This document shows, piece after piece, positions 13,054 through 32,299 of a stretch of 64,000 bases of DNA. Positions within the stretch are counted from its first letter, which is position 1. Each line of letters begins with the position of its first letter. This stretch comes from Salinicoccus carnicancri Crm (GTDB taxonomy: Bacteria; Bacillota; Bacilli; Staphylococcales; Salinicoccaceae). The stretch spans positions 806,001 through 870,000 of the forward strand of contig NZ_ANAM01000008.1 of the NCBI RefSeq assembly GCF_000330705.1. Direction: 5' to 3'. A program made the position numbers and the translations under genes. The notes under the pieces are model-generated. The model ran no database searches and had not been told where the DNA came from. It was given only the letters and a program-made list of their open reading frames with translations.

Positions 13054-13723
13054 ACAGCGTGATTATCTTATACTTTTTTTCAGGACGTCCCTTATCCCCA
13101 AAATCCTGTGAGACAGCCAGTTTCCCAGATTTTCTCAAATACTCAAGATACCGTCTGACAGTCGTCCGTGATGTTCCAAGATAGTCTCCGAGTTGCGAGG
13201 AAGTCCATTCCTCTTCTTCAGAGAAAGCATTTTCTATCTTCTTCAATGTTACCGGGTCGATGCCCTTTGGAAATTCATCTTCTTCGATGCGCTTTTTTCT
13301 GCCAAAATAACGGTCTATCTTCTCCTGATCCATTTCAACGGATTCTGACAGCCCCCGGTTCCTCTCGGCATATTCATTGACCGTCTCGCCCAGTTTGTCC
13401 AGCTTCACAGGCTTCACCAAATAATAAAGGACACCGAGCTGCATCATATTCTTCACTTTCTCACTTTCCTGGCTGGCAGTGACAGCTATGAAATTCACAT
13501 AAGGGTATGCTTTCAGAACTTCCTCTATCAGCCTATCCCCTTGCATATCAGGCAGATAGACATCGACCAGCATAAGATCGATGTCCTTCTCTTCCAGAAG
13601 ACTTAGACTTTCCGTTGCATTGAGCGCTGTGTATATTTCATCCGCACATGTATTTTCCAGCAGATACTCCCTGTACATCTCCCCTATCCTGAAATCATCT
13701 TCAACTATAAGGATCTTCATCAT
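13052..13723 (-). CDS. CitB/DcuR-type response regulator
   Basis: A 223-residue response regulator. The receiver domain starts MMKILIVEDD, with the phosphoacceptor Asp54 in LMLVDVYLPD and the conserved LVKPVKL lysine near residue 104. The C-terminal half holds a helix-turn-helix (LGDYLGTSRTTVRRYLEYL), typical of the CitB/DcuR/DctR group that controls di- and tricarboxylate uptake. The start is placed at 13723 after GGGGAGAGG. The longer frame reaching 13792 lies entirely inside the kinase gene. It overlaps the kinase by 23 nt and probably activates tctCBA-prpBD and perhaps the upstream DASS gene. Confidence 0.88.
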   Translation of the reverse strand: MMKILIVEDDFRIGEMYREYLLENTCADEIYTALNATESLSLLEEKDIDLMLVDVYLPDMQGDRLIEEVLKAYPYVNFIAVTASQESEKVKNMMQLGVLYYLVKPVKLDKLGETVNEYAERNRGLSESVEMDQEKIDRYFGRKKRIEEDEFPKGIDPVTLKKIENAFSEEEEWTSSQLGDYLGTSRTTVRRYLEYLRKSGKLAVSQDFGDKGRPEKKYKIITL

Positions 13724-15329
13724 CCTCTCCCCTTTCCTGCGCCATCGGTATTTCGGCAGTAAATATGGTTCTCCCTTCCCGGGAGTGGACATCTATATAT
13801 CCTCCCAGCAGTTCAACATTATTATTCACATTGTAGAGTCCGTATCCCCGGCCGGGACTATCATTTTTGGTCGAATATCCCTTTCTGAACACTTCATCCG
13901 TATCGCTTATTCCGCTGCCGTTATCCTTGACTGCGATTTCCAGCCAGCCGTCGAACCAGCCGGTGTAAAATTCGATTTCTGATGATTTCCTGCCCGCCAC
14001 TGCATCAAAGGCGTTGTCGATGAGATTGCTGATGATTGTAATCAGTGCATTGATGGTGACCTTGTCCGAAATCTCCTCCATCCGGCTTTCCTCATCGACT
14101 CTGAAATTCACCCTTTTTTCTTGGGCTGTATTCATTTTGGCAATCAGAAGTGCTTTGACCCGGTCTTCCCGTATGCCGTGGAGGTTGTTCTGGTATGAAT
14201 CCAGGTTATCGATTTCATCATTGAGCACTTCTCTTATGGCCGTATATTTTTCCATCTCCAGCAGCCCTGAAATCAGATGAAGCCGGTTCTTATACTCATG
14301 GCTTTGCGCCCGGAGATCGTCAAACAGGGACTCTACGATGGTAAGCTTATTGGAGAGCTCCGACATTTCCGTCATATCCCTCAATATGACCACATGGCCG
14401 GAAAGCTCCCCCTTTATATACAGATCATTGATGATGACTATGATTTCCTTATCGTTGAGCTGGGTCTCGAAGTAGCGGATTCCGGGGGCGCTGTCCTGAA
14501 GCACCGAATCCATGTCATGTCCGAGATGGTTGCGTATATTACACGCATTCCAATCGGCTGATTCCGGGATATCAAGATATTTACGGGCAGCTCCGTTAAG
14601 ATAGATGATCCTGCCGGATAGATCGGCCCCTATGATCCCTTCATCCAGCGCAGAGAATATATTCTCCCTGTTCTTCAGGATCATTGTGATTTCTTTGGGC
14701 TCATAGCCGAGCGTTTCCGATTTTATGTATTTCCCGAACCATCTGCTTATGAAGAAACTGAGAATGATGAAGACCACGACAATGAAGGACAGCTGGGAGA
14801 GCTTTACCATTATCCTTTCGATGATCTTACTCTCGAAGTAGCCGACTTTCACTACGCCACTCAATTGTTTTGCCTCGTCACCAGCGTAGATGGGGGCAAT
14901 AGCCAGAATGGCCGGTTCTATATATTTGTCTGTCTCTTCGGTATAATATGCCCCGAATATGTTTGCCCGGGCATCATTGCTGAATGGTTCATGAGTTCCG
15001 ATCATTTCAGGATCAGGATGTGACATGATGGTGCCTTCCTTGTTTTTGACGATGACAAAATCTATGTCATTTTCAAAAATATACTGGTTGGTGAGCGTCT
15101 GGATCTTTTCATTGTCGCTCAGATCATCACCGTCGACCAGTGAAGGCATGAAGGAGATGGTTTTTGCAGATTGGAGCGTAAGCCTTCTGGCATTGTCATA
15201 GTATTCACTGCCGGAATGGTAGAGATAGAACACCGACAGGGAAATGATGATCAGACTCATCACCCCGATCAGTATGCCGTTTATCTTCGTTTCAAGACTT
15301 ACATCTAACAGTCGTTTCATAATAATCAT
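13701..15329 (-). CDS. CitA/DcuS-type sensor histidine kinase
   Basis: A 542-residue kinase with two membrane segments (about 15-35 and 175-195) that flank an extracytoplasmic PAS-like sensor domain. A cytoplasmic PAS domain follows (about 215-330; NIFSALDEGIIGADLSGRIIYLN in part). The histidine box is QSHEYKNRLHLISG near residue 345, and the ATPase has NLIDNAFDAV and GSGISD with GRGYGLYNV. This architecture is that of CitA, DcuS and DctS, which bind citrate or C4 acids outside the cell. Start choice is between ATG 15329 and ATG 15320; GGGGAAG lies just upstream. Confidence 0.9.
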   Translation of the reverse strand: MIIMKRLLDVSLETKINGILIGVMSLIIISLSVFYLYHSGSEYYDNARRLTLQSAKTISFMPSLVDGDDLSDNEKIQTLTNQYIFENDIDFVIVKNKEGTIMSHPDPEMIGTHEPFSNDARANIFGAYYTEETDKYIEPAILAIAPIYAGDEAKQLSGVVKVGYFESKIIERIMVKLSQLSFIVVVFIILSFFISRWFGKYIKSETLGYEPKEITMILKNRENIFSALDEGIIGADLSGRIIYLNGAARKYLDIPESADWNACNIRNHLGHDMDSVLQDSAPGIRYFETQLNDKEIIVIINDLYIKGELSGHVVILRDMTEMSELSNKLTIVESLFDDLRAQSHEYKNRLHLISGLLEMEKYTAIREVLNDEIDNLDSYQNNLHGIREDRVKALLIAKMNTAQEKRVNFRVDEESRMEEISDKVTINALITIISNLIDNAFDAVAGRKSSEIEFYTGWFDGWLEIAVKDNGSGISDTDEVFRKGYSTKNDSPGRGYGLYNVNNNVELLGGYIDVHSREGRTIFTAEIPMAQERGEDDEDPYS

Positions 15330-15431: not shown

Positions 15432-16856
15432 CTACTGCCACAGCATCCAATATGATGCCGCAGCAATGATTGCGGTCATGATGAATATACAGGTGGAGAA
15501 AGAGGCGATGATGTAATGGTCCCTTTTACTGAGCACACCTGTCTGGAACGCGAAATATGACGTCGGTGAATGGATTGGAAATATGTTGGTCCCGCCAACA
15601 ATCATGATCACGAGGAATGCGATACTCACGCCAGGTATGCCCGTGATATCCGCATAGGAGATGATGACTGGGAAAATCACGATGATTGCAGAAGACGGGA
15701 CGACGAATATCATCCTGAACAGGAAGATGATGAGTGCAATGATCATGATTTTGAAAGTCATTCCGGAACCATCAGGCACAAACTGCAGCATCTGTTCAGC
15801 TATTACAGAAGCCGTCCCATTCTGATCCAGCAGTATCCCTATTGAAAATGATGCGCCCAGAAGCAGGAAATTCTCCCAGTCGAATGCCCGGATATCCTCA
15901 TTGCCGAGAAGTCCCACTTTAGGTAATGAATAGATGACCAGCAGAATCATCGGCGGCAGCAATGTCGGTACAGCATCATTGTTTGTGACAATCCACGTGA
16001 GTATCATCAGGGCGAAGGTGATGATTACGAACCAGAATTTTTTCTTTTCAGAGGGTGTTACGAAGTCTGATTCCGTCCGGGCTTGAGGATCCCGCACATC
16101 TGCAGGAATTTCCGGCGGATAGTTATGTTTCAGATATTTCCATGCAAATACATTCACCATCAACAGTGATGCCCAGAGCGGAGGCGCGACTATCAGGAAC
16201 CATTCCAGCCACCCCAGATCTGCAACATTGTAATCCTTCAGCAGCTGCGCTGCGAGAACCGGGAAACCACCACCTGTATAGACGATGATGGTGCCATTCT
16301 GGTTCATCAGACCGACCACGTACAGTGCATACTTCCTGAAGATGCTCCGGTCTGAAAAACCGAACGCATCGTTCAGCCGGTCAATGAACGGGAGCAGCAT
16401 TTTCAACCTGGCAAATGCAGAAGGCATGAGCACGGGCAGTATCGCAATCATGAGCGGCAATGCGACAGCTATGGCTTTGGGGCCTTTTCTATTCAGCCTG
16501 AGCAACTGTGAAGCGACGACCTTGTCCACCCCGGCCTTTACAAGAACTCTCGCAAGTATCGTCAGAATGAGGATGAAATACAGGGCTGATGACAGGAAAC
16601 CTGTCATCGCCCCCTCCACCGAATCCACCAGACCGAGTATCATCATCATGGCCAGAAGCAATATACTTGCAGCACCAGATGGCAGCGGCGAAATTGTCCA
16701 GAGATATATTGCAAGCACAAGCAGCCCCACCGTCCTTTGCTGTTCCGGAGTGAAGTCCGAGAGAAAGGTCGATGGAGCTATTAGTGTGAGAGCTGCAACA
16801 GCTGCCAGTATTAGGATATTGAATGTTTTCGTGAAACGTCTTCTGATAATTTGCAT
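15432..16856 (-). CDS. DASS (SLC13-type) di/tricarboxylate transporter
   Basis: A 474-residue, roughly 12-helix transporter of the divalent anion:sodium symporter family. The two re-entrant substrate motifs are visible: MNQNGTIIVYTGGG in the first half and GGTNIFPIHSPTSYF in the second, with LLPPMILLVIYSLPK between. It carries citrate- or succinate-like acids with cations. ATG 16856 is preferred because AGGTGA lies 5 bp upstream; GTG 16865 is the alternative. It lies 31 bp downstream of the tcuA-like gene, so it probably imports that enzyme's substrate. It is clearly paralogous to the DASS gene at 36923-38347. Confidence 0.9.
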   Translation of the reverse strand: MQIIRRRFTKTFNILILAAVAALTLIAPSTFLSDFTPEQQRTVGLLVLAIYLWTISPLPSGAASILLLAMMMILGLVDSVEGAMTGFLSSALYFILILTILARVLVKAGVDKVVASQLLRLNRKGPKAIAVALPLMIAILPVLMPSAFARLKMLLPFIDRLNDAFGFSDRSIFRKYALYVVGLMNQNGTIIVYTGGGFPVLAAQLLKDYNVADLGWLEWFLIVAPPLWASLLMVNVFAWKYLKHNYPPEIPADVRDPQARTESDFVTPSEKKKFWFVIITFALMILTWIVTNNDAVPTLLPPMILLVIYSLPKVGLLGNEDIRAFDWENFLLLGASFSIGILLDQNGTASVIAEQMLQFVPDGSGMTFKIMIIALIIFLFRMIFVVPSSAIIVIFPVIISYADITGIPGVSIAFLVIMIVGGTNIFPIHSPTSYFAFQTGVLSKRDHYIIASFSTCIFIMTAIIAAASYWMLWQ

Positions 16857-16887
16857 AGATATCACCTACTCCGCTGAACCCTGACTG

Positions 16888-18387
16888 CTATTTGTCAAAT
16901 GCCTTACCCCTGATCATTTCCGCTGCAGACATTCCTGCAGTCCTTCCGAAAACGGAGCCTGACATCAGCCCTGAACCGCCTGGATAGTTGTGATAGAACA
17001 ATTCGCCGACCATTTCCCCGGCAGCATACAGCCCTTTGACCGGCTCTTCCTTGTCACCCAGGACTTCCGCTTTACTATTCACCTTTACCGCACCGAAAGT
17101 AAATGTGATACCGCATGTTACCGGATAAGCATAGTAAGGCGGCCGATCGAAAGTCAATGCCCAGTTCGTCTTCTCCGGTGACAGGCCCCGGGTAGACTTG
17201 CCATCCTTGACACTCGGGTTGTAATCCCCCTCCTGCACGGCCCTGTTATAATCCGTGAGAGTTTGCATGAACGACTCTTTATCCACACCCATCTTCACTG
17301 CAAGCATTTCGGGTGTGTCCGCTTTGAATACTGTCGCCTCCTCAAGATCATACTCGGCTCTGAGCATCGGGCGCACCTGGCTGTCATACAACTGGAACGC
17401 TTTATGGTCCGGCTGCTTCAACGTCTCTTTACCATATTTGGCATACGTATAGTTACGGAAATCTGCACCTTCATCCACAAAACGCTTACCTTCCGTATTC
17501 ACAATCAGACCAAGCGGATAGGATGACTTCTTGTAGATATCCCCCGGCTTACTGTAATCACCGACTTTTGGAGCATTATAATCCGTCGTATGCGCATGGC
17601 ACCCGTCGTACTGTCCAGCACGCACCGCTCCAGCTTCAAGTGCCATTGCAATGCCATCGCCCGTATTGTATTCGCTGCCTCTGACCACAGCATCCTTCCA
17701 TTCATCACCGAGGTACTCCATGCGTTTTTTCTTATTTGCTTCAAACCCGCCGCAGGCCAGGATGACGGAATCTGTCTTTATAACCGTATTCCCTCCATGT
17801 TTACGGCCGATGTGTATGGCGGAAATTTTACCGTCTGTCTTCTCAAGTTTTACCGCCGGGGATTCATACCAGATTTCCACACCGTTTTCCCTGGCTTTCT
17901 TGAGCATCGCTTCAACGAGACCGATACCTTTGTTCTCTGTCTTTACAGGCAGGCCGCCCCAGAAAATCTTTTTGCCGTCTTTTTCAAAAAACTGGTTTTC
18001 ATTCATGATGAACTTCACGCCCTGATCTTTCATCCACTCTATCGTCTCATATGATTTGGAAACAAGGTGATCCGCAAGTTCCGCTTTACTTTTCCCCTGC
18101 GTCACTTTCATCAGATCGCCATGGAAATCCTCCGTTCCATATTCAGGCATTTCAATATCATCGTCTTCAGAAAGACCATCAACGATCCGTTTGATACCCT
18201 CGAGGTCCCTGTATGCAAAACGGATTGCACCGTCTGTGAAGAACGAGTTGCCGCCGCGTTTATGTTCAGGTCCCTTCTCCACCATCAGGACGCTTGCCCC
18301 TTTTTCACTTGCTGCGACTGCAGCACTCAATGCCGCGTTCCCTGTGCCGACTACAACCGCATCAAATTGCTTTTCTGTTTCTGCCAT
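16888..18387 (-). CDS. tcuA: FAD-dependent tricarballylate dehydrogenase (TcuA-like)
   Basis: A 499-residue flavoprotein of the fumarate reductase/succinate dehydrogenase superfamily, closest by eye to TcuA/CobZ-N. The FAD fold starts DAVVVGTGNAALSAAVAAS and continues VLMVEKG and RGGNSFFTDGAIRFAY. The family block FHGDLMKVTQGKS and the C-terminal VTCGITFTFGAVKVN follow, then LYAAGEMVGELFYHNYPGGS. TcuA oxidises tricarballylate to cis-aconitate; in Salmonella it needs TcuB to reoxidise its flavin. No tcuB lies nearby here. A DASS transporter follows and a LysR gene is divergent, mirroring the tcuR-tcuABC logic. A generic fumarate-reductase-like activity remains possible. Confidence 0.8.
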   Translation of the reverse strand: MAETEKQFDAVVVGTGNAALSAAVAASEKGASVLMVEKGPEHKRGGNSFFTDGAIRFAYRDLEGIKRIVDGLSEDDDIEMPEYGTEDFHGDLMKVTQGKSKAELADHLVSKSYETIEWMKDQGVKFIMNENQFFEKDGKKIFWGGLPVKTENKGIGLVEAMLKKARENGVEIWYESPAVKLEKTDGKISAIHIGRKHGGNTVIKTDSVILACGGFEANKKKRMEYLGDEWKDAVVRGSEYNTGDGIAMALEAGAVRAGQYDGCHAHTTDYNAPKVGDYSKPGDIYKKSSYPLGLIVNTEGKRFVDEGADFRNYTYAKYGKETLKQPDHKAFQLYDSQVRPMLRAEYDLEEATVFKADTPEMLAVKMGVDKESFMQTLTDYNRAVQEGDYNPSVKDGKSTRGLSPEKTNWALTFDRPPYYAYPVTCGITFTFGAVKVNSKAEVLGDKEEPVKGLYAAGEMVGELFYHNYPGGSGLMSGSVFGRTAGMSAAEMIRGKAFDK

Positions 18388-18424: not shown

Positions 18425-18503
18425 TTAGAAGAATGCTTGACATAAGTAAAATATATACATTCAATGGTTATAGATAGAATAATTCAATGTCAGGGTGATG
18501 ATT

Positions 18504-19364
18504 ATGAATGAAAAGGACTGGCAGCTGCTCACACTCCTCTACGAGGAAAGAAATATCACAAAAACCGCGAAGAAACTCTACCTCTCCCAGCCTTCGCTCA
18601 CATACAGGCTTAAACAGCTTGAACAAGAATTCGGCATTTCTCTGATGCACCGTGGAAACAGAGGGATAACTTTCACCAGTGAGGGGGAATACCTGGTCAG
18701 GTACGCTGAAAAAATGCTCAAGGAACTGAAAAACACTGAAGACGCACTTTCAAACATGAACAGGGAAGTAAGCGGGACTCTTAGGCTCGGTTCTTCCAGC
18801 AACTTCGCACATTATGAGCTGCCGGACATACTGGAAGGATTCATCAGCCGGTATCCGGGCGTCGATCTTCAGCTCAAAACCGGCTGGAGTTCAGATATCA
18901 TCAGTCACCTGCAGGATGAATCCATCCACGCAGCATTCCTCCGCGGTGATGTCAGATGGAAAGGCAAAAAGATACTGATCGCAAGAGAACACATGAGCGT
19001 CGTTTCAAAAGAGGAGATAACGCTTGAAGAGCTGCCCCGCCTGAACTATATAAAATACCAGACAGACCCGCTCCTGAAAAACACATTTGATGACTGGTGG
19101 CTGAAAAACTTCGACAGGCCCGCTCATACATCCATGGAGGTGGACCGCATAGAAACATGCAAAGAGATGGTCAAAAGAGGCCTCGGGTATTCTTTGATGC
19201 CGAACATCAGCATCCAGGATGAGGATGATCTTTATACTCTGGATATGAAAGCGGACGGCAGAAACATCGTCCGCAACTCCTGGTTCCTGTATAAAGAAGA
19301 GACGTTGGACCTGAGAATAGTCAGCAGTCTGATGCAGTTCGTCAAAGAATATTACAGTATTTGA
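18504..19364 (+). CDS. LysR-family transcriptional regulator, divergent from the tcuA-like gene
   Basis: A 286-residue LysR protein. The N-terminal winged helix reads MNEKDWQLLTLLYEERNITK, then AKKLYLSQPSLTYRLKQLEQ, the standard recognition helix. The effector domain (about 90-285) contains LRLGSSSNFAHYELPDIL. Start ATG 18504 has AGGGTGAT upstream; two in-frame starts just before it lack spacing. It is transcribed away from the tcuA-DASS pair over a 116-bp gap containing a T-N11-A palindrome. This suggests it activates that pair, as TcuR does in Salmonella. Ligand assignment is inference. Confidence 0.85.
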   Translation: MNEKDWQLLTLLYEERNITKTAKKLYLSQPSLTYRLKQLEQEFGISLMHRGNRGITFTSEGEYLVRYAEKMLKELKNTEDALSNMNREVSGTLRLGSSSNFAHYELPDILEGFISRYPGVDLQLKTGWSSDIISHLQDESIHAAFLRGDVRWKGKKILIAREHMSVVSKEEITLEELPRLNYIKYQTDPLLKNTFDDWWLKNFDRPAHTSMEVDRIETCKEMVKRGLGYSLMPNISIQDEDDLYTLDMKADGRNIVRNSWFLYKEETLDLRIVSSLMQFVKEYYSI

Positions 19365-22809: not shown

Positions 22810-22862
22810 GGGCATAAGTATACAGGTATAGTTAAATAAACTATTCCTATAAACTTATGCCC
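22810..22862 (-). promoter_or_regulatory. RAT/terminator element of the ptsG leader
   Basis: A long minus-strand hairpin (outer arms GGGCATAAGT and ACTTATGCCC, imperfect inner arms TATAGGAATAGTT / AACTATACCTGTA) ends in T5, 48 bases before ptsG. This is the arrangement of GlcT-dependent antitermination, in which GlcT stabilises an overlapping RNA structure and prevents the terminator. Confidence 0.8.
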
Positions 22863-23722: not shown

Positions 23723-23742
23723 TTTCGTTCCCTGCTAATTTC

Positions 23743-23771
23743 AATATATAGGAGGTTCTGCCGACTTACAA
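23743..23771 (-). promoter_or_regulatory. glcT promoter
   Basis: Minus-strand TTGTAA (23766-23771), a 17-bp spacer and TATATT (23743-23748) lie 21 bp before the GTG start of glcT. Confidence 0.6.
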
Positions 23772-23817
23772 GAACATAGGATGAAAAAGAAGGTTTTTTA
23801 CAATACGTCGGCATAAA

Positions 23818-24489
23818 TTACTGATTGGAAGCGATGCCGCAGGATTCCGCAACCACTTCCACTATATGCTTCACTTCAACCGGTTCATCCACTCCATCCA
23901 AATTCGCGTCCACCGGCATCCGGGCGCACCACACAGGGTGGGAGGTCACCACCAGATCCGGCTTTGCATAATCTTCTTCATGCTTCGCTTCAATATAATC
24001 GAGGCCCGGTATCTGCTTAAGTATCTTCACCGGTTCGTCGAAGACCTCCACCATATCAGAGAGCGGGTCCGGCGACTGATATACAGCTGTCCTTCCCACT
24101 TCATGCTTGAATTCAAGCTTCGCCATCTTCATGATATCCGATATATCCCGGACCTGTTCAGTAAACCGTTTTGCACGTTCATACCAGGCAGTACCCGGAA
24201 CGAATAATTTATCATATTCTTTCAGAGAGGTGCCGGGGCCACCGATTGTATTCACAATGTAATCAAAGTCATGCTCCTCAAAAACCTTGATATTTTCCAT
24301 GGCCATTTCCAGAGTCAGGTCAAATTCCCCTGTCATATCCCTCTCCGTACTCACACCAGCCGGAAATGCCATGCTGGTCACCCGAACATTCCCCGCCTCC
24401 ATGATCCTGATCACCAGTTCATTGATCTTTGAAAACGTCGGATTTGAAACAGGATCTTCAAATAATCCCACAGAAATAGTTTGTCTCAT
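23818..24489 (-). CDS. Cysteine-depleted paralogue of the GlcF C-terminal (CCG) domain
   Basis: This 223-residue protein aligns along its whole length with the C-terminal half of GlcF encoded at 25913-27193. Over a 60-residue block beginning EHDFDYIVNTIGG I count 41 identities. The cofactor cysteines are gone: GlcF FFEGC reads LFEDP here, QTCCG reads FPAGV, IGGCG reads IGGPG, and PSCHL reads SPDPL. About 30 residues containing the second CCG motif are deleted. Only a shifted WCAR and the terminal ESCG cysteines remain. The N-terminal ferredoxin domain of GlcF is absent. It has its own promoter, cre sites and a strong GAGGAGG site, so it looks expressed rather than dead. The role is unknown: pseudo-subunit, regulator or recently inactivated duplicate. 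Confidence 0.8.
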   Translation of the reverse strand: MRQTISVGLFEDPVSNPTFSKINELVIRIMEAGNVRVTSMAFPAGVSTERDMTGEFDLTLEMAMENIKVFEEHDFDYIVNTIGGPGTSLKEYDKLFVPGTAWYERAKRFTEQVRDISDIMKMAKLEFKHEVGRTAVYQSPDPLSDMVEVFDEPVKILKQIPGLDYIEAKHEEDYAKPDLVVTSHPVWCARMPVDANLDGVDEPVEVKHIVEVVAESCGIASNQ

Positions 24490-24508
24490 ACAATCCTCCT
24501 CTTCATGA

Positions 24509-24522
24509 TGAATGCGTTTACA
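24509..24522 (-). promoter_or_regulatory. Second cre-like site in the leader of the GlcF paralogue
   Basis: TGAATGCGTTTACA differs from the cre consensus at one position and lies between the promoter and the gene. Confidence 0.45.
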
Positions 24523-24577: not shown

Positions 24578-24591
24578 TGTATACGCTTACA
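24578..24591 (-). promoter_or_regulatory. cre candidate at the start point of the GlcF paralogue
   Basis: TGTATACGCTTACA abuts the -10 box and covers the expected transcription start. It fits the relaxed cre consensus completely and the strict one at 13 of 14 positions. Confidence 0.6.
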
Positions 24592-24620
24592 TTATACCCT
24601 GTAAAATGGTTAAATATCAA
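24591..24620 (-). promoter_or_regulatory. Promoter of the GlcF paralogue
   Basis: Minus-strand TTGATA (24615-24620), an 18-bp spacer and a perfect TATAAT (24591-24596). The leader from here to the gene is about 100 bases. Confidence 0.7.
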
Positions 24621-24680
24621 ACTATTTTAAGTGAAATTTCGAACATTTTATGACAAAAGGAAATATTTTTATGCACTGAT

Positions 24681-24712
24681 AAAAAAACGGAAGATGAGAT
24701 CGTCATCTTCCG
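24681..24712 (-). terminator. Terminator of the TAXI-TRAP / oxidase operon
   Basis: CGGAAGATGA pairs with TCATCTTCCG, followed on the minus strand by T7. It lies 8 bases beyond the lhgO stop and separates the operon from the GlcF paralogue. Confidence 0.85.
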
Positions 24713-24719
24713 CGGAAAG

Positions 24720-25916
24720 TCACCGTATTTTCTTTGCAAATCGTTCGACTATTTCCCTCCCTATCTCTATTGAGCATGTTGCAGCAGGTGAAGGTGCATT
24801 CAGTACATGGAGACTCCTTGCATTTTCTTCAAAATGGAAGTCATCCAGCATACTGCCATCCGGTTTCATAGCCTGCGCCCTCACACCAGCTTCCATTGGT
24901 TGGATATCTCCTTCCTTCAGCAGCGGAACCAGTTTCCTGGCTTCTTTGACGAAAGCTTTCTTGTTGAACGAACGATAATACTCTCCCACGGCCTCTTTTA
25001 TATTTTTAAGACCCATTCTATAAAGGCCGGGGAAGGTGAGTATTTCTCTAGTTTCTTCAAAATGGAACCCCAGTTTTCTATATGCCTCTTTCCTGAAACC
25101 GAGCACCGCGTTCGGTCCGACATCGACGCCTCCGCCTACCATATTGGTGAAATGCACTCCCAGAAACGGAAGCTCCGGATTGGGAACCGGATAGACCAAT
25201 GTTTTTACATAGTGTTCAACACTCTCATGCAGTTTGAAGTATTCTCCCCTGAACGGTATGATCTTCACATCCGTGTCCACACCGCTCATTTTTGCCAGTT
25301 TATCACTGTACAGCCCGGCACAGTTTATCAGGTAGTCTGTTTGATACTGAACGGCGTCCGTACCTGCTGTGATTCTTCCATCCTCTTCAGTGACATATTC
25401 GACTGACGTATTGTAATGTATCTCTCCACCGTTTTGCTCAAATAATTCACCGAATTTTTCCGTCACAGCTTTGAAATCCACAATGCCGGTATTTTTCACA
25501 AGAATTCCACCGGCTGTATTCACGAACGGCTCAATCTCCCTGACTTCATAACCGTTCAGCAGTTTGACATCCAGCTGGTTCTCCAGGCCGCGCTCATACA
25601 GTTTCTTCATCCTCGGTATTTCTTCTTCATCTGTTGCGACTATGACCTTGCCGCATTGTGAATAATCAATATTATGTTTGTCACAAAATGCCATCATGGA
25701 CCTGGAGCCGCTACGTGCGAACCTTGCCTTGTATGAGCCTGGTTTATAATAGATTCCTGAATGGATTACACCGCTGTTATGTCCAGTCTGATGCTTCGCC
25801 GCCTCCCCCTCCTTATCCAGAACAATGATCTTTCTGTCCCTGAATTTTTCCGAAAGGTGATATGCTGTGCTCAGTCCTATGATTCCTGCCCCTACTATCA
25901 GTATGTCTGTTTTCAA
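24720..25916 (-). CDS. lhgO: L-2-hydroxyglutarate oxidase (LhgO-like)
   Basis: A 398-residue FAD oxidoreductase of the DAO family. The Rossmann start is TDILIVGAGIIGLSTAYHLS, and the LhgO landmark HNSGVIHSGIYYKPGSYKA follows. Further matches are INCAGLYSDKLA, IIPFRGEYFKL and the C-terminal NAPSPAATCSIEIG. LhgO oxidises L-2-hydroxyglutarate to 2-oxoglutarate and feeds electrons to the quinone pool. The start is probably TTG at 25916, overlapping the glcF stop as TTGA with GAGAGG just upstream; a further TTG at 25934 is possible. It is the last gene of the TAXI-TRAP operon, which supports 2-hydroxyglutarate as the imported acid. Confidence 0.88.
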   Translation of the reverse strand: MKTDILIVGAGIIGLSTAYHLSEKFRDRKIIVLDKEGEAAKHQTGHNSGVIHSGIYYKPGSYKARFARSGSRSMMAFCDKHNIDYSQCGKVIVATDEEEIPRMKKLYERGLENQLDVKLLNGYEVREIEPFVNTAGGILVKNTGIVDFKAVTEKFGELFEQNGGEIHYNTSVEYVTEEDGRITAGTDAVQYQTDYLINCAGLYSDKLAKMSGVDTDVKIIPFRGEYFKLHESVEHYVKTLVYPVPNPELPFLGVHFTNMVGGGVDVGPNAVLGFRKEAYRKLGFHFEETREILTFPGLYRMGLKNIKEAVGEYYRSFNKKAFVKEARKLVPLLKEGDIQPMEAGVRAQAMKPDGSMLDDFHFEENARSLHVLNAPSPAATCSIEIGREIVERFAKKIR

Positions 25917-27193
25917 TTTCCTCTCACCCCGCAAGCTTCTGCCGCTATTTCCACAATATGTTTCACTTCAATTTCATCAGCCAGACCTTCACGCTCCACA
26001 CCCAGTTTCATCTGTATATGGCAACCCGGGTTCGATGTAATGATAAGGTCCGGCTTTGATTTTTTAACATTTTCCATCTTGAGGTCAAGAATCTGCATGG
26101 ATTCATCGAAATGGAGGATATTATATATTCCCGCCGATCCGCAGCATAGTGATTTCTCATTCATTTCCATATAATTCAACCCCGGCACCTGGTGGATCAC
26201 ATCCAGCGGGGCTTCAAACACCTGCTGGACATTCTCAAGATGGCAGGAAGGCTGGTATACAGCATTCTTTTTAATCTCATGATTGAAATCAAAATCGATC
26301 ATCGCCATGATTTGGGAAATATCCCGTACTTTCCCGGTGAACTTCTTTGCCCGCTCATGCCAGCCTGTACCCGGCTCGAATAATTTGTCGTATTCTTTCA
26401 GTGTCGCTCCACAGCCGCCGATCGTGTTGACAATATAATCGAAGTCGTATTTTTCATATGCCTCTATGTTTTCCATCGCAAGCTTCAGAGTCTCTTCCGA
26501 TTCACCTGTGTGATGCTGCAGGGCGCCGCAGCATGTCTGACCCGGTATATTCGTAACCTGTATATTATTTTTCTGCATTATTTTCACAGCCAGCCTGTTC
26601 ACATTTGCGAAGAATGCATCCATGATGCACCCTTCGAAAAAGCCGACCGACAGACGTTTCCTTCTGAAAGGGTTGACGTTCCTCGTAATGCGCCTGCTTA
26701 AAATGATGTCAGGCATCGCCCTGTTCATCTGATCCATCTTTTTCGACTTTCCCAGGATACCTGTCATTTTTACAGCTTTTTTCATACCGGATGACTGGTA
26801 GGCATAGATGCCTCTGTTGATCAGTCCGAGCACTCTCTTATTCTTCAGCGCAAACTTGAATGATGATGTCCTGGCCGCCTTTTCCACGATATCCATCTGT
26901 TTGTTCTCTTTCAATACTTCCACCGCTGACATGAGGATGTCCCCGTACCTTACATTTGTCGGACAGACCGTCTCACATGCCCTGCATCCCAGGCACAGAT
27001 CGATGCCTTCCTGCATATCATCAATCGATATTCTTTCTTCCGCTGCCAGTTTGACGAGGTTGATTCTTCCCCGCGGGGAATGCTTCTCTTTTTTGAAAGC
27101 GATATATGTCGGACAGACCGGCAGACAATAGCCGCATTGTACACAGTCAAAAGTCGCTTCATAATCCAGTTTTTCAACCAATGATTCAGTCAT
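25913..27193 (-). CDS. glcF: GlcF-type iron-sulfur subunit of a 2-hydroxyacid dehydrogenase
   Basis: A 426-residue iron-sulfur protein. The N-terminal part has two ferredoxin motifs, CVQCGYCLPVCP and CLGCRACETVCP, for two [4Fe-4S] clusters. The C-terminal part has two CCG domains with TCCGAL and LCCGSAG plus single cysteines in FEGC, GGCG, PSCH and NPGCH. It takes electrons from the FAD subunit GlcD and passes them to the membrane. It overlaps glcD by 8 nt and lhgO by 4 nt. The substrate could be glycolate, D-lactate or D-2-hydroxyglutarate; the lhgO and TAXI neighbours favour the last. A cysteine-stripped paralogue lies just downstream. Confidence 0.9.
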   Translation of the reverse strand: MTESLVEKLDYEATFDCVQCGYCLPVCPTYIAFKKEKHSPRGRINLVKLAAEERISIDDMQEGIDLCLGCRACETVCPTNVRYGDILMSAVEVLKENKQMDIVEKAARTSSFKFALKNKRVLGLINRGIYAYQSSGMKKAVKMTGILGKSKKMDQMNRAMPDIILSRRITRNVNPFRRKRLSVGFFEGCIMDAFFANVNRLAVKIMQKNNIQVTNIPGQTCCGALQHHTGESEETLKLAMENIEAYEKYDFDYIVNTIGGCGATLKEYDKLFEPGTGWHERAKKFTGKVRDISQIMAMIDFDFNHEIKKNAVYQPSCHLENVQQVFEAPLDVIHQVPGLNYMEMNEKSLCCGSAGIYNILHFDESMQILDLKMENVKKSKPDLIITSNPGCHIQMKLGVEREGLADEIEVKHIVEIAAEACGVRGN

Positions 27194-28592
27194 TGCGCAA
27201 CACTAACCTTTTTTCTCCTTTTTCAGGAAATATTTTTCCCGGATTCAAAATGTTTTTTGGATCCAGGGCACGCTTTATCGCCTGTTGGAATGCCACTCCC
27301 TCTTCGCCCATCTCCGTGGCAAGGAAGGCTTTTTTCATCGTTCCTATACCGTGTTCGCCCGAAAGTGTTCCACCGAGTTCAATTGCATAGTTGAATATTT
27401 CTTCAACAGCCCGTTCCACCCGATCCACTTCTTCCGGGTCGCGCATATCCGTGTTGATTGTCGGATGCAGGTTTCCGTCCCCTGCATGGCCGAAGACTAC
27501 AATATTCAGATTATACTTCTTTTTAATCTCATCGATTTTCCTGAACATATCCGGAATTCTGCTGAGCGGTACGGTCGCATCCTCGGAAATTTTCGTATAA
27601 CCGCTTGAGACGACTGCAGGAGACACCAGTTTGCGCACCTGCCAGAGCCTGGCCTCCTCCTCTTTATTCGATGCTACCTGCACATTTTCCACTCCGATTT
27701 CACTCAATGCCTTCCTGACAATGCCCAGCTCTTTCACAAGTACGTCCGGATCACCATCCACTTCAACGAGTATTATGGCAACTGCTTCCCTCGGCAGACC
27801 GAGCCCGGCGTAGTCCTCCACCTTATTGATTGCGTTATGGTCGAGTATTTCCATTTTGGATGGCCTGACACCCGATGTCAGTATTTTTGATATGGATTTC
27901 CCGGCTGTATACAGATCTTCGAAAATTATCATTGCCGTCCTGGTGTCGGACGGTTTCGGTATCAGACGTAAAGTCGCTTCCGTAATGACAGCCAGTGTAC
28001 CTTCAGATCCGACAATCAGCTTCGTCAGATCATAACCCGTCACATTCTTGACCGTCCTGCCGCCTGTCCTCAAAACTTTCCCATCCGCCGTGACAATTTC
28101 CAGACCAATCACAAAATCTTTGGTGACCCCATACTTGACCCCCCTGGGACCTCCGGCGTTTTCTGCAAGATTCCCGCCTATGGTACAGATCGAAGAGGAC
28201 GAGGGATCGGGGGGATACATCAGATTATGCGCTTCGGCCAGTTTGTGTATGTCCCCCGTCCTGACACCCGGACTGACTTTCATGATCAGATCATCCGGGT
28301 ATATTTCAAGCTTGGTATCCCATTGCGAAAAATCGAGCACAATACCGCCGCGGACCGGCAAAGGTCCGCCCGACAGACTCGTACTCGCCCCGCGGGCACA
28401 GACTGGAATTTCATGCCAGTCCGCAATTTCCATTATTCTCTGCACTTCCTCAGTGGACATGACCTGGGCCACACAGTCAGGGATGTACTGGCCGAAAGAC
28501 CCGTCGTATCCATAGGACATCCTGTCGTCAATTTCAGTCAAAAGACGTTTTCCCATTATATTTTCAAATTCCTTCAAAACAACATGCTCCAT
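27186..28592 (-). CDS. glcD: GlcD-type FAD-binding 2-hydroxyacid dehydrogenase
   Basis: A 468-residue protein of the VAO/PCMH flavoprotein superfamily. The FAD-binding_4 domain (about 35-215) includes ARGASTSLSGGPLPVRGGIVLD in parts, PPDPSS and GGNLAENAGGPRGVKYG. The FAD-oxidase_C domain (about 225-455) includes VFGHAGDGNLHPT and LSGEHGIGTMKK, whose histidines line the active site. This fold serves glycolate oxidase GlcD, D-lactate and D-2-hydroxyglutarate dehydrogenases. With GlcF it would oxidise the D-enantiomer while LhgO handles the L-form. The ribosome site is GGGAGG before ATG 28592. Confidence 0.9.
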   Translation of the reverse strand: MEHVVLKEFENIMGKRLLTEIDDRMSYGYDGSFGQYIPDCVAQVMSTEEVQRIMEIADWHEIPVCARGASTSLSGGPLPVRGGIVLDFSQWDTKLEIYPDDLIMKVSPGVRTGDIHKLAEAHNLMYPPDPSSSSICTIGGNLAENAGGPRGVKYGVTKDFVIGLEIVTADGKVLRTGGRTVKNVTGYDLTKLIVGSEGTLAVITEATLRLIPKPSDTRTAMIIFEDLYTAGKSISKILTSGVRPSKMEILDHNAINKVEDYAGLGLPREAVAIILVEVDGDPDVLVKELGIVRKALSEIGVENVQVASNKEEEARLWQVRKLVSPAVVSSGYTKISEDATVPLSRIPDMFRKIDEIKKKYNLNIVVFGHAGDGNLHPTINTDMRDPEEVDRVERAVEEIFNYAIELGGTLSGEHGIGTMKKAFLATEMGEEGVAFQQAIKRALDPKNILNPGKIFPEKGEKRLVLRND

Positions 28593-32285: not shown

Positions 32286-32299
32286 TGAATGCGCTTTCA
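32286..32299 (-). promoter_or_regulatory. cre candidate in the TAXI operon leader
   Basis: TGAATGCGCTTTCA (its complement TGAAAGCGCATTCA) matches the relaxed cre pattern and lies about 13 bases into the predicted transcript. Confidence 0.6.

Follow-up and report, generated by a model that had tools for sequence, protein, structure and literature searches.

A relative of GlcF in Salinicoccus that has lost its presumed cluster cysteines and keeps a core under purifying selection

Pseudoenzymes that lack catalytic residues are well known. Among CCG proteins, subunit B of heterodisulfide reductase (HdrB) carries noncubane clusters. LutA is presented as mostly two CCG domains that likely bind iron-sulfur (PMC3924224), and in EtfD the CCG domains contain two clusters, a linear one of the 3Fe-4S type and a noncubane one of the 4Fe-4S type (PMC13083937). 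In the open-licence PMC literature, taken by titles and the starts of abstracts, we found no CCG-family protein that lacks the ligands of both domains and is under purifying selection; the open-licence PMC literature likewise yielded no paper joining Salinicoccus with glycolate oxidase.

Here, we describe a 223-residue open reading frame, referred to as the ghost, in a stretch of 64,000 nucleotides from Salinicoccus carnicancri Crm (the window; its genome is G000). The ghost belongs to the size class of LutA, which has two CCG domains and no ferredoxin domain, but unlike LutA it has no CCG motif, and in contrast to HdrB it is without cluster ligands. It shares common descent with GlcF, from which it differs in four ways: there is no N-terminal 4Fe-4S part, only one of nine C-half cysteines remains, 28 residues are deleted, and the gene has a promoter-like site of its own.

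Likeness to GlcF and loss of the presumed cluster ligands

The ghost gene and three genes near it are the following:

23818-24489, minus strand: ghost gene, ATG start, 223 amino acids; GlcF-like C-half paralogue without the presumed cluster cysteines
24720-25934, minus strand: LhgO, L-2-hydroxyglutarate oxidase family (NF008726, 546 bits, cut-off 299)
25913-27193, minus strand: GlcF-like paralogue with 4Fe-4S part and two CCG stretches (PF02754 in two stretches, Fer4_8; NF008434, 226.8 bits)
27186-28592, minus strand: GlcD-like FAD subunit (PF02913, PF01565; TIGR00387, 469 bits, below the cut-off of 567.9)

Since the NF008434 score of 226.8 bits lies below the cut-off of 333, "GlcF" is used here as a family-level name only. 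This protein is the sole PF02754 match in the window genome. A second GlcD-like gene, with 53% identity, lies outside the window (G000 contig C10:46999-48357) and has a counterpart in another Salinicoccus genome, G001. At 32286-32299, a cre-like palindrome TGAAAGCGCATTCA stands directly upstream of the TAXI gene of a TAXI-TRAP-GntR-GlcD-GlcF-LhgO run.

The ghost aligns over its whole length with the tandem CCG half of its GlcF-like neighbour, which runs from about residue 179 to the C-terminus, and 100 of the 220 aligned columns are identical in a 32-row alignment, in agreement with the full-length alignment described in an earlier note on this DNA. In a search of the 2.67-Mb genome, ghost and window GlcF matched at E 8.1e-51 with 48% identity over residues 2-169 and a second time at E 1.2e-8 over residues 173-222, and with these values the likeness is not due to chance. 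The block of 60 residues for which 41 identities had been noted is indeed present, the count being slightly low: the best 60-column block holds 44.

We searched 12 Salinicoccus genomes, that of the window among them, and found a full-length ghost in four, namely G000, G008 (S. sediminis, 89% identity), G011 (Ca. S. stercoripullorum, 83%) and G004 (64%), and none of these long copies contains an internal stop. The C-terminal half of GlcF has nine cysteines, each of them present in all 27 GlcF rows of the alignment. Every one of the four long ghosts has eight of these nine substituted or deleted and retains C217 alone. The second cysteine of the window ghost, C188, lies opposite a GlcF histidine, one residue off a GlcF cysteine, and two of the four have R or H at its position; because of this, the loss amounts to eight cysteines rather than the seven of nine counted before, when the loss as such had been recognized correctly. 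Both CCG motifs are gone, as had also been claimed: the first CCG loop has no cysteines, and the second motif falls within 28 GlcF residues that have no counterpart in the ghost. The segments concerned are, in order of the protein:

24331-24384, minus strand: former first CCG loop, residues 36-53; cysteines gone, constraint relaxed
24124-24303, minus strand: best-conserved block, residues ~63-122; 44 of 60 identical to GlcF
24046-24075, minus strand: former PSC loop, residues 139-148; Cys replaced by D or E, relaxed
23884-23988, minus strand: residues 168-202; spans the former GC loop and the point where 28 residues, second CCG motif included, are deleted; relaxed
23821-23883, minus strand: C-terminal segment, residues 203-223; 205-223 identical in all four long ghosts

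We take the assignment of the eight lost cysteines as cluster ligands from the CCG family. On these alignments, the ghost shares descent with GlcF and has lost its presumed cluster ligands, and since the second CCG loop is lost together with them, the protein should not hold CCG iron-sulfur clusters. As far as the sequence tells, the earlier view that the ghost is unable to carry out GlcF cluster chemistry holds, eight presumed ligands being absent. Further positions set the ghosts apart from GlcF: few or none of the 27 GlcF rows have S216, A220, S221, N222 or Q223, and ghost-specific invariants such as H73, P85, Y103 and H184 each occur in at most two of them.

Profile searches place the ghost at the margin of its family. 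By common descent it qualifies as a CCG protein (E 8.1e-51 to GlcF; alignment with 27 GlcF rows), and by the cysteines of the two PF02754 domains it keeps none of eight in any of the four long copies. Pfam assigned no family at E≤0.01. Scores for PF02754 were 15.0 bits (G004), 13.6 (G011) and 12.2 (window), all below the gathering cut-off of 20.6, and a search at E≤10 did not list the ghosts of G008 and G001. Against the GlcF family NF008434 the ghost, which has no N-terminal 4Fe-4S domain, reaches 27.3 bits, the equivalog cut-off being 333; its best NCBIfam matches, LdhH (NF045670, 53.2 bits) and TfrB (NF004898, 40.9 bits), remain far below cut-offs of 800 and 385 bits. A Pfam match to MoCoBD_2 (14.8 bits, cut-off 27) was taken as chance.

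It is plausible that the ghost retains the tandem CCG fold. AlphaFold2 with the 32-row alignment, in which 27 rows are GlcF, returned a model with pLDDT 78.6 and pTM 0.78 that is weak at residues 44-53 and 193-196; with the four ghost rows alone, the model was uninformative (pLDDT 32.5). The fold claim thus rests on homology, because the alignment behind the model consists mostly of GlcF rows and the ghost-only model failed. Of the earlier statement that the fold is kept, what stands is its plausibility by homology; the ghost-only model lends it no independent support. When the homology-guided model was compared by VIA-align, LutA was the best match (Z 10.8, 188 residues, rmsd 5.0), the target 9a6l being an integrative model, followed by HdrB chains (Z 10.1-10.5) and the CCG domains of EtfD (Z 9.0); the next match, a hypothetical protein of Helicobacter (3kwl, Z 8.4), is not a known CCG protein. 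Matches at Z 5.6-6.6, to FolD and further folds of Rossmann-like type, were taken as sharing a common arrangement and set aside. Foldseek with the same model ranked LutA first (E 1.1e-8, TM ~0.5) and EtfD second, LacI-type proteins filling the rest of the five matches at E≤0.001. A profile from the mixed ghost/GlcF alignment matched HdrB at E 4.5e-12.

Distribution of the ghost and its relation to the GlcD-GlcF-LhgO operon

Open orthologues stand at the syntenic locus in three of the 11 other Salinicoccus genomes. In G001, a 160-codon form (L038:9266-9748, minus strand) occupies the syntenic place between glcT/licT-type and TcuA-type genes, the neighbours of ghosts being named solely by likeness to window genes. 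This short form ends after the first domain, is without the cluster cysteines of that domain, has an N-terminus of about 36 residues unlike that of the other ghosts and shares H73 and Y103 with them; it may be a functional short version or a case of lineage-specific decay. No ghost match was found at 1e-5 in the remaining seven of the 12 genomes (six without any match, one with GlcF only), so that the ghost is dispensable. In the six genomes without any match, tblastn against the region that holds the HxlR-type and glcT genes turned up no ghost remnant, the best E values being 0.058 to 2.3.

A scan of the order (157 genomes, 34 matched at 1e-15) listed no ghosts beyond the four long ones and the short G001 form, and every non-ghost row has a frame of at least 419 amino acids. 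In a scan of the class (398 sampled genomes, 199 matched), which was judged by frame length, the matches listed outside Salinicoccus, down to about E 1.7e-23, all have frames of at least 417 amino acids. A scan of genome contigs gave three loci, one of which is the GlcF of S. cyprini. On inspection, the locus of an 832-codon frame in G024 reads as ordinary GlcF. In an unrooted tree, a split supported at 100/100 separates the four long ghosts, which sit on a long branch, from the 27 GlcF rows; when G001 is added, the five ghosts stay together (91/92), the G001 branch being long and its place unsure. Three of 27 computed GlcF stretches were omitted from the alignment: L017, L056 (a near-copy of L055) and L025 (the same place as L061).

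Does the ghost serve the operon beside which it is encoded? It adjoins the GlcD-GlcF-LhgO operon in G000, G008 and G011, and the earlier note named a regulatory pseudo-subunit among its proposals. In such a reading, the ghost would take the place of GlcF on GlcD, or bind to GlcF, and thereby block or tune electron flow. Besides this adjacency, the core block with its 44 of 60 residues identical to GlcF would be expected if the same partner surface were kept, and the cre-like site before the TAXI gene (32286-32299) also speaks for a link. However, the ghost of G004 sits between an HxlR-type gene and M20-glcT-ptsG genes with no such operon at the locus, and in the whole G004 genome we detected no PF02754 protein at E≤0.01, no GlcD at 1e-10 and no LhgO at 1e-20. 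This ghost is constrained all the same and is not accelerated: its distance to the Salinicoccus GlcF rows is 0.63-0.69 versus 0.68-0.82 for the trio of G000, G008 and G011. Conversely, S. cyprini (G003) has a GlcF and LhgO operon and no ghost, and the ghost has its own promoter-like site and terminator-like hairpins. Because G004 keeps an unaccelerated ghost without GlcD, GlcF and LhgO, a role that needs any of them is unlikely as a general one, and the pseudo-subunit proposal emerges weakened to the point that we consider it improbable. In G000, G008 and G011, there may be an additional role linked to these three proteins.

Purifying selection on the core and relaxed former cluster loops

For the close trio of ghosts, dN/dS by NG86 was 0.157, 0.220 and 0.201, against G004 it was 0.128-0.140, and YN00 gave 0.136-0.240 for the trio; the C-terminal half of GlcF in the same trio showed NG86 values of 0.112-0.140. 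In a codon model, lnL was -1990.7 with omega free. With omega 1, where kappa took five fixed values from a grid, the highest lnL was -2058.6, and neutrality thus costs ~68 log units. The codon tests cover the four long ghosts, G001 being left out.

Constraint along the ghost is inverted with respect to GlcF. The former cluster loops of the ghost have pN/pS values of 0.51 (trio) and 0.64 (versus G004), that is, they are relaxed yet still below neutral, whereas the cluster loops of GlcF, at 0.07 (trio) and 0.10 (versus G003), form its most constrained pool. The core, in turn, is no less constrained than that of GlcF, with 0.10 (trio) and 0.13 (versus G004) for the ghost and 0.17 (trio) and 0.19 (versus G003) for GlcF. 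All pN/pS values are uncorrected for multiple hits, and residues 2-35 and 220-223 belong to neither pool. The Fisher p obtained here, 1.5e-21 for one pair, overstates the certainty, as the segment borders were drawn after seeing the alignment. Within the trio, pN was 0.000 for residues 149-167 and 0.013 for the C-terminal segment 203-223, both of which are nearly frozen. Selection purifies the core of the ghost; a conserved core is expected of any folded protein, and the full-length ghosts number only four, all from one genus and three of them close.

Recent gene conversion from glcF was considered as the source of the conserved block and rejected: NG86 dS is saturated in all 16 ghost/GlcF pairs, and third positions agree at only 17-23 of the 41-46 residues identical between ghost and GlcF (37-55%). 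By this agreement and the saturated synonymous change, the likeness has not been refreshed by conversion.

Could the gene be a decaying duplicate that is open by chance? Fast loops (pN/pS 0.51-0.64), the truncated copy of G001 and the seven of 12 genomes that are ghost-free would suit such a history. It is nonetheless very improbable, given that the neutral codon model is worse by ~68 log units, the core stands at 0.10-0.13, all four long copies are stop-free, and the promoter and cre-like sites are conserved. The signs of decay that had been named beforehand, namely a lack of orthologues, neutral dN/dS and frameshifts, came out against decay, with the 160-codon form of G001 as the contrary point; the earlier argument against simple decay is therefore sustained by open orthologues in three of 11 other genomes and dN/dS of 0.13-0.22.

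A second possibility is that the emptied cluster pocket has become a new ligand-binding or catalytic site, in which ghost-specific invariants would bind a small molecule or a metal. H73, P85, Y103 and H184, invariant in ghosts and each found in at most two of the 27 GlcF rows, are candidates for such a site. However, the former pocket loops evolve fastest, the opposite of what a new pocket would lead one to expect, and among four sequences many positions are invariant by descent alone; we consider a new site of this kind unlikely.

Expression signals and a proposed role

Around the ghost, the following signals were found:

24591-24620, minus strand: promoter-like site TTGATA-18-TATAAT (11/12), ~100 bases upstream of the ATG
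24578-24591, unstranded: cre-like site TGTAAGCGTATACA, palindrome, one mismatch, touching the -10 hexamer
24509-24522, unstranded: cre-like site TGTAAACGCATTCA in the leader, palindrome, one mismatch
24495-24500, minus strand: ribosome-binding site AGGAGG, 5 nt from the ATG
24687-24713, minus strand: terminator-like hairpin between lhgO and ghost; one found versus 0.9 expected in shuffles, weak alone

The promoter, two cre-like sites and ribosome site that the earlier note had pointed out were all recovered, promoter and cre-like sites being conserved. When the regions upstream of the four long ghosts are aligned, the promoter reappears, with a different -35 hexamer in G004. The promoter-side cre-like site agrees with 13 of 14 positions of the cre consensus in all five ghost loci, G001 included. 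For the leader site, the scores at the loci of the four long ghosts are 13, 13, 13 and 12, and no such site was seen at the G001 locus. For comparison, when the window was cut into 523 half-overlapping stretches of 244 bp, nine contained a cre-like site scoring at least 13. A cre site at the promoter, as asked of a CcpA regulon member, is thus present at one mismatch to the consensus used. Since the -10 hexamer of the promoter-like site touches a cre-like site, CcpA probably represses the ghost when glucose is plentiful. Together with the hairpins, these sites suggest that the ghost forms a transcription unit of its own, subject to carbon catabolite control.

About 40 bases upstream of the -35 hexamer (24621-24660, TTTTGTCATAAAATGTTCGAAATTTCAC...) are well conserved in G000, G008 and G011 and mostly so in G004, and may contain a further regulator site. 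Directly after the ghost stop, a hairpin with a T run is found in G004, G008 and G011, in which an M20-type amidohydrolase gene lies between ghost and glcT; the window lacks part of this hairpin and the M20 gene, and 95 bases (23723-23817) separate ghost and glcT. An RNA element was considered and rejected: predicted leader folds differ among species, and the single Rfam match, below its cut-off and located between glcT and ptsG, was taken as chance. Between the glcT/licT-type gene and ptsG, a hairpin GGGCATAAGT / ACTTATGCCC (22810-22862) is possibly a ptsG antiterminator-terminator.

The ghost probably functions as a protein, in a new role that needs no cofactor. We put at roughly 55% the probability that it derives from a GlcF-type tandem CCG protein, has been retained without the cofactor and is most likely a protein-binding adaptor or regulator with a partner other than GlcD, GlcF or LhgO. 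In this reading, the ghost arose by an old duplication and then shed the ferredoxin part at the N-terminus along with the second CCG loop and the eight presumed cluster cysteines. Selection keeps the scaffold core and the C-terminal tail and lets the former cluster loops drift. Through a face of the old CCG scaffold, the protein could bind its partner, and its own strong promoter-like site with the cre-like site at the -10 would confer CcpA repression on plentiful glucose. More tentatively, and at something short of even odds, the ghost may exemplify a stand-alone, glucose-repressed, Fe-S-free regulator or adaptor, present in G004 without a detected CCG enzyme, in which a redox subunit has turned into a binding module by loop erosion with the scaffold held or tightened. 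The inverted constraint map separates the binding role of the CCG scaffold from its cluster role and names a surface to test, and G004 offers a clean background for a partner search.

TcuB is the usual partner of TcuA, and a further explanation makes the ghost an accessory of a TcuA-type FAD dehydrogenase. A TcuA-type gene (E≤1e-40) is present in four of the five ghost-bearing genomes and in none of the seven others, with an exact chance of 0.010 if the genomes were independent; in G001, it lies directly upstream of the ghost. The TcuB profile TIGR02484 found no match in the 12 Salinicoccus genomes at E≤0.001, no control genome scoring over the cut-off. However, relatedness of the genomes and linkage of the genes leave at most about two independent events, G011 has a ghost and no TcuA match, and the ghost is without a redox centre. 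The TcuA association is a lead only, and we judge this explanation distinctly improbable next to an adaptor or regulator on the CCG scaffold. In the window, the TcuA-type FAD dehydrogenase is encoded at 16888-18387 on the minus strand (NF006130, 560 bits, cut-off 369), beside a DASS-type transporter (15432-16865), a CcpC-like LysR gene (18495-19364) and a DcuS/MalK-like kinase (13701-15329), all three below the respective cut-offs.
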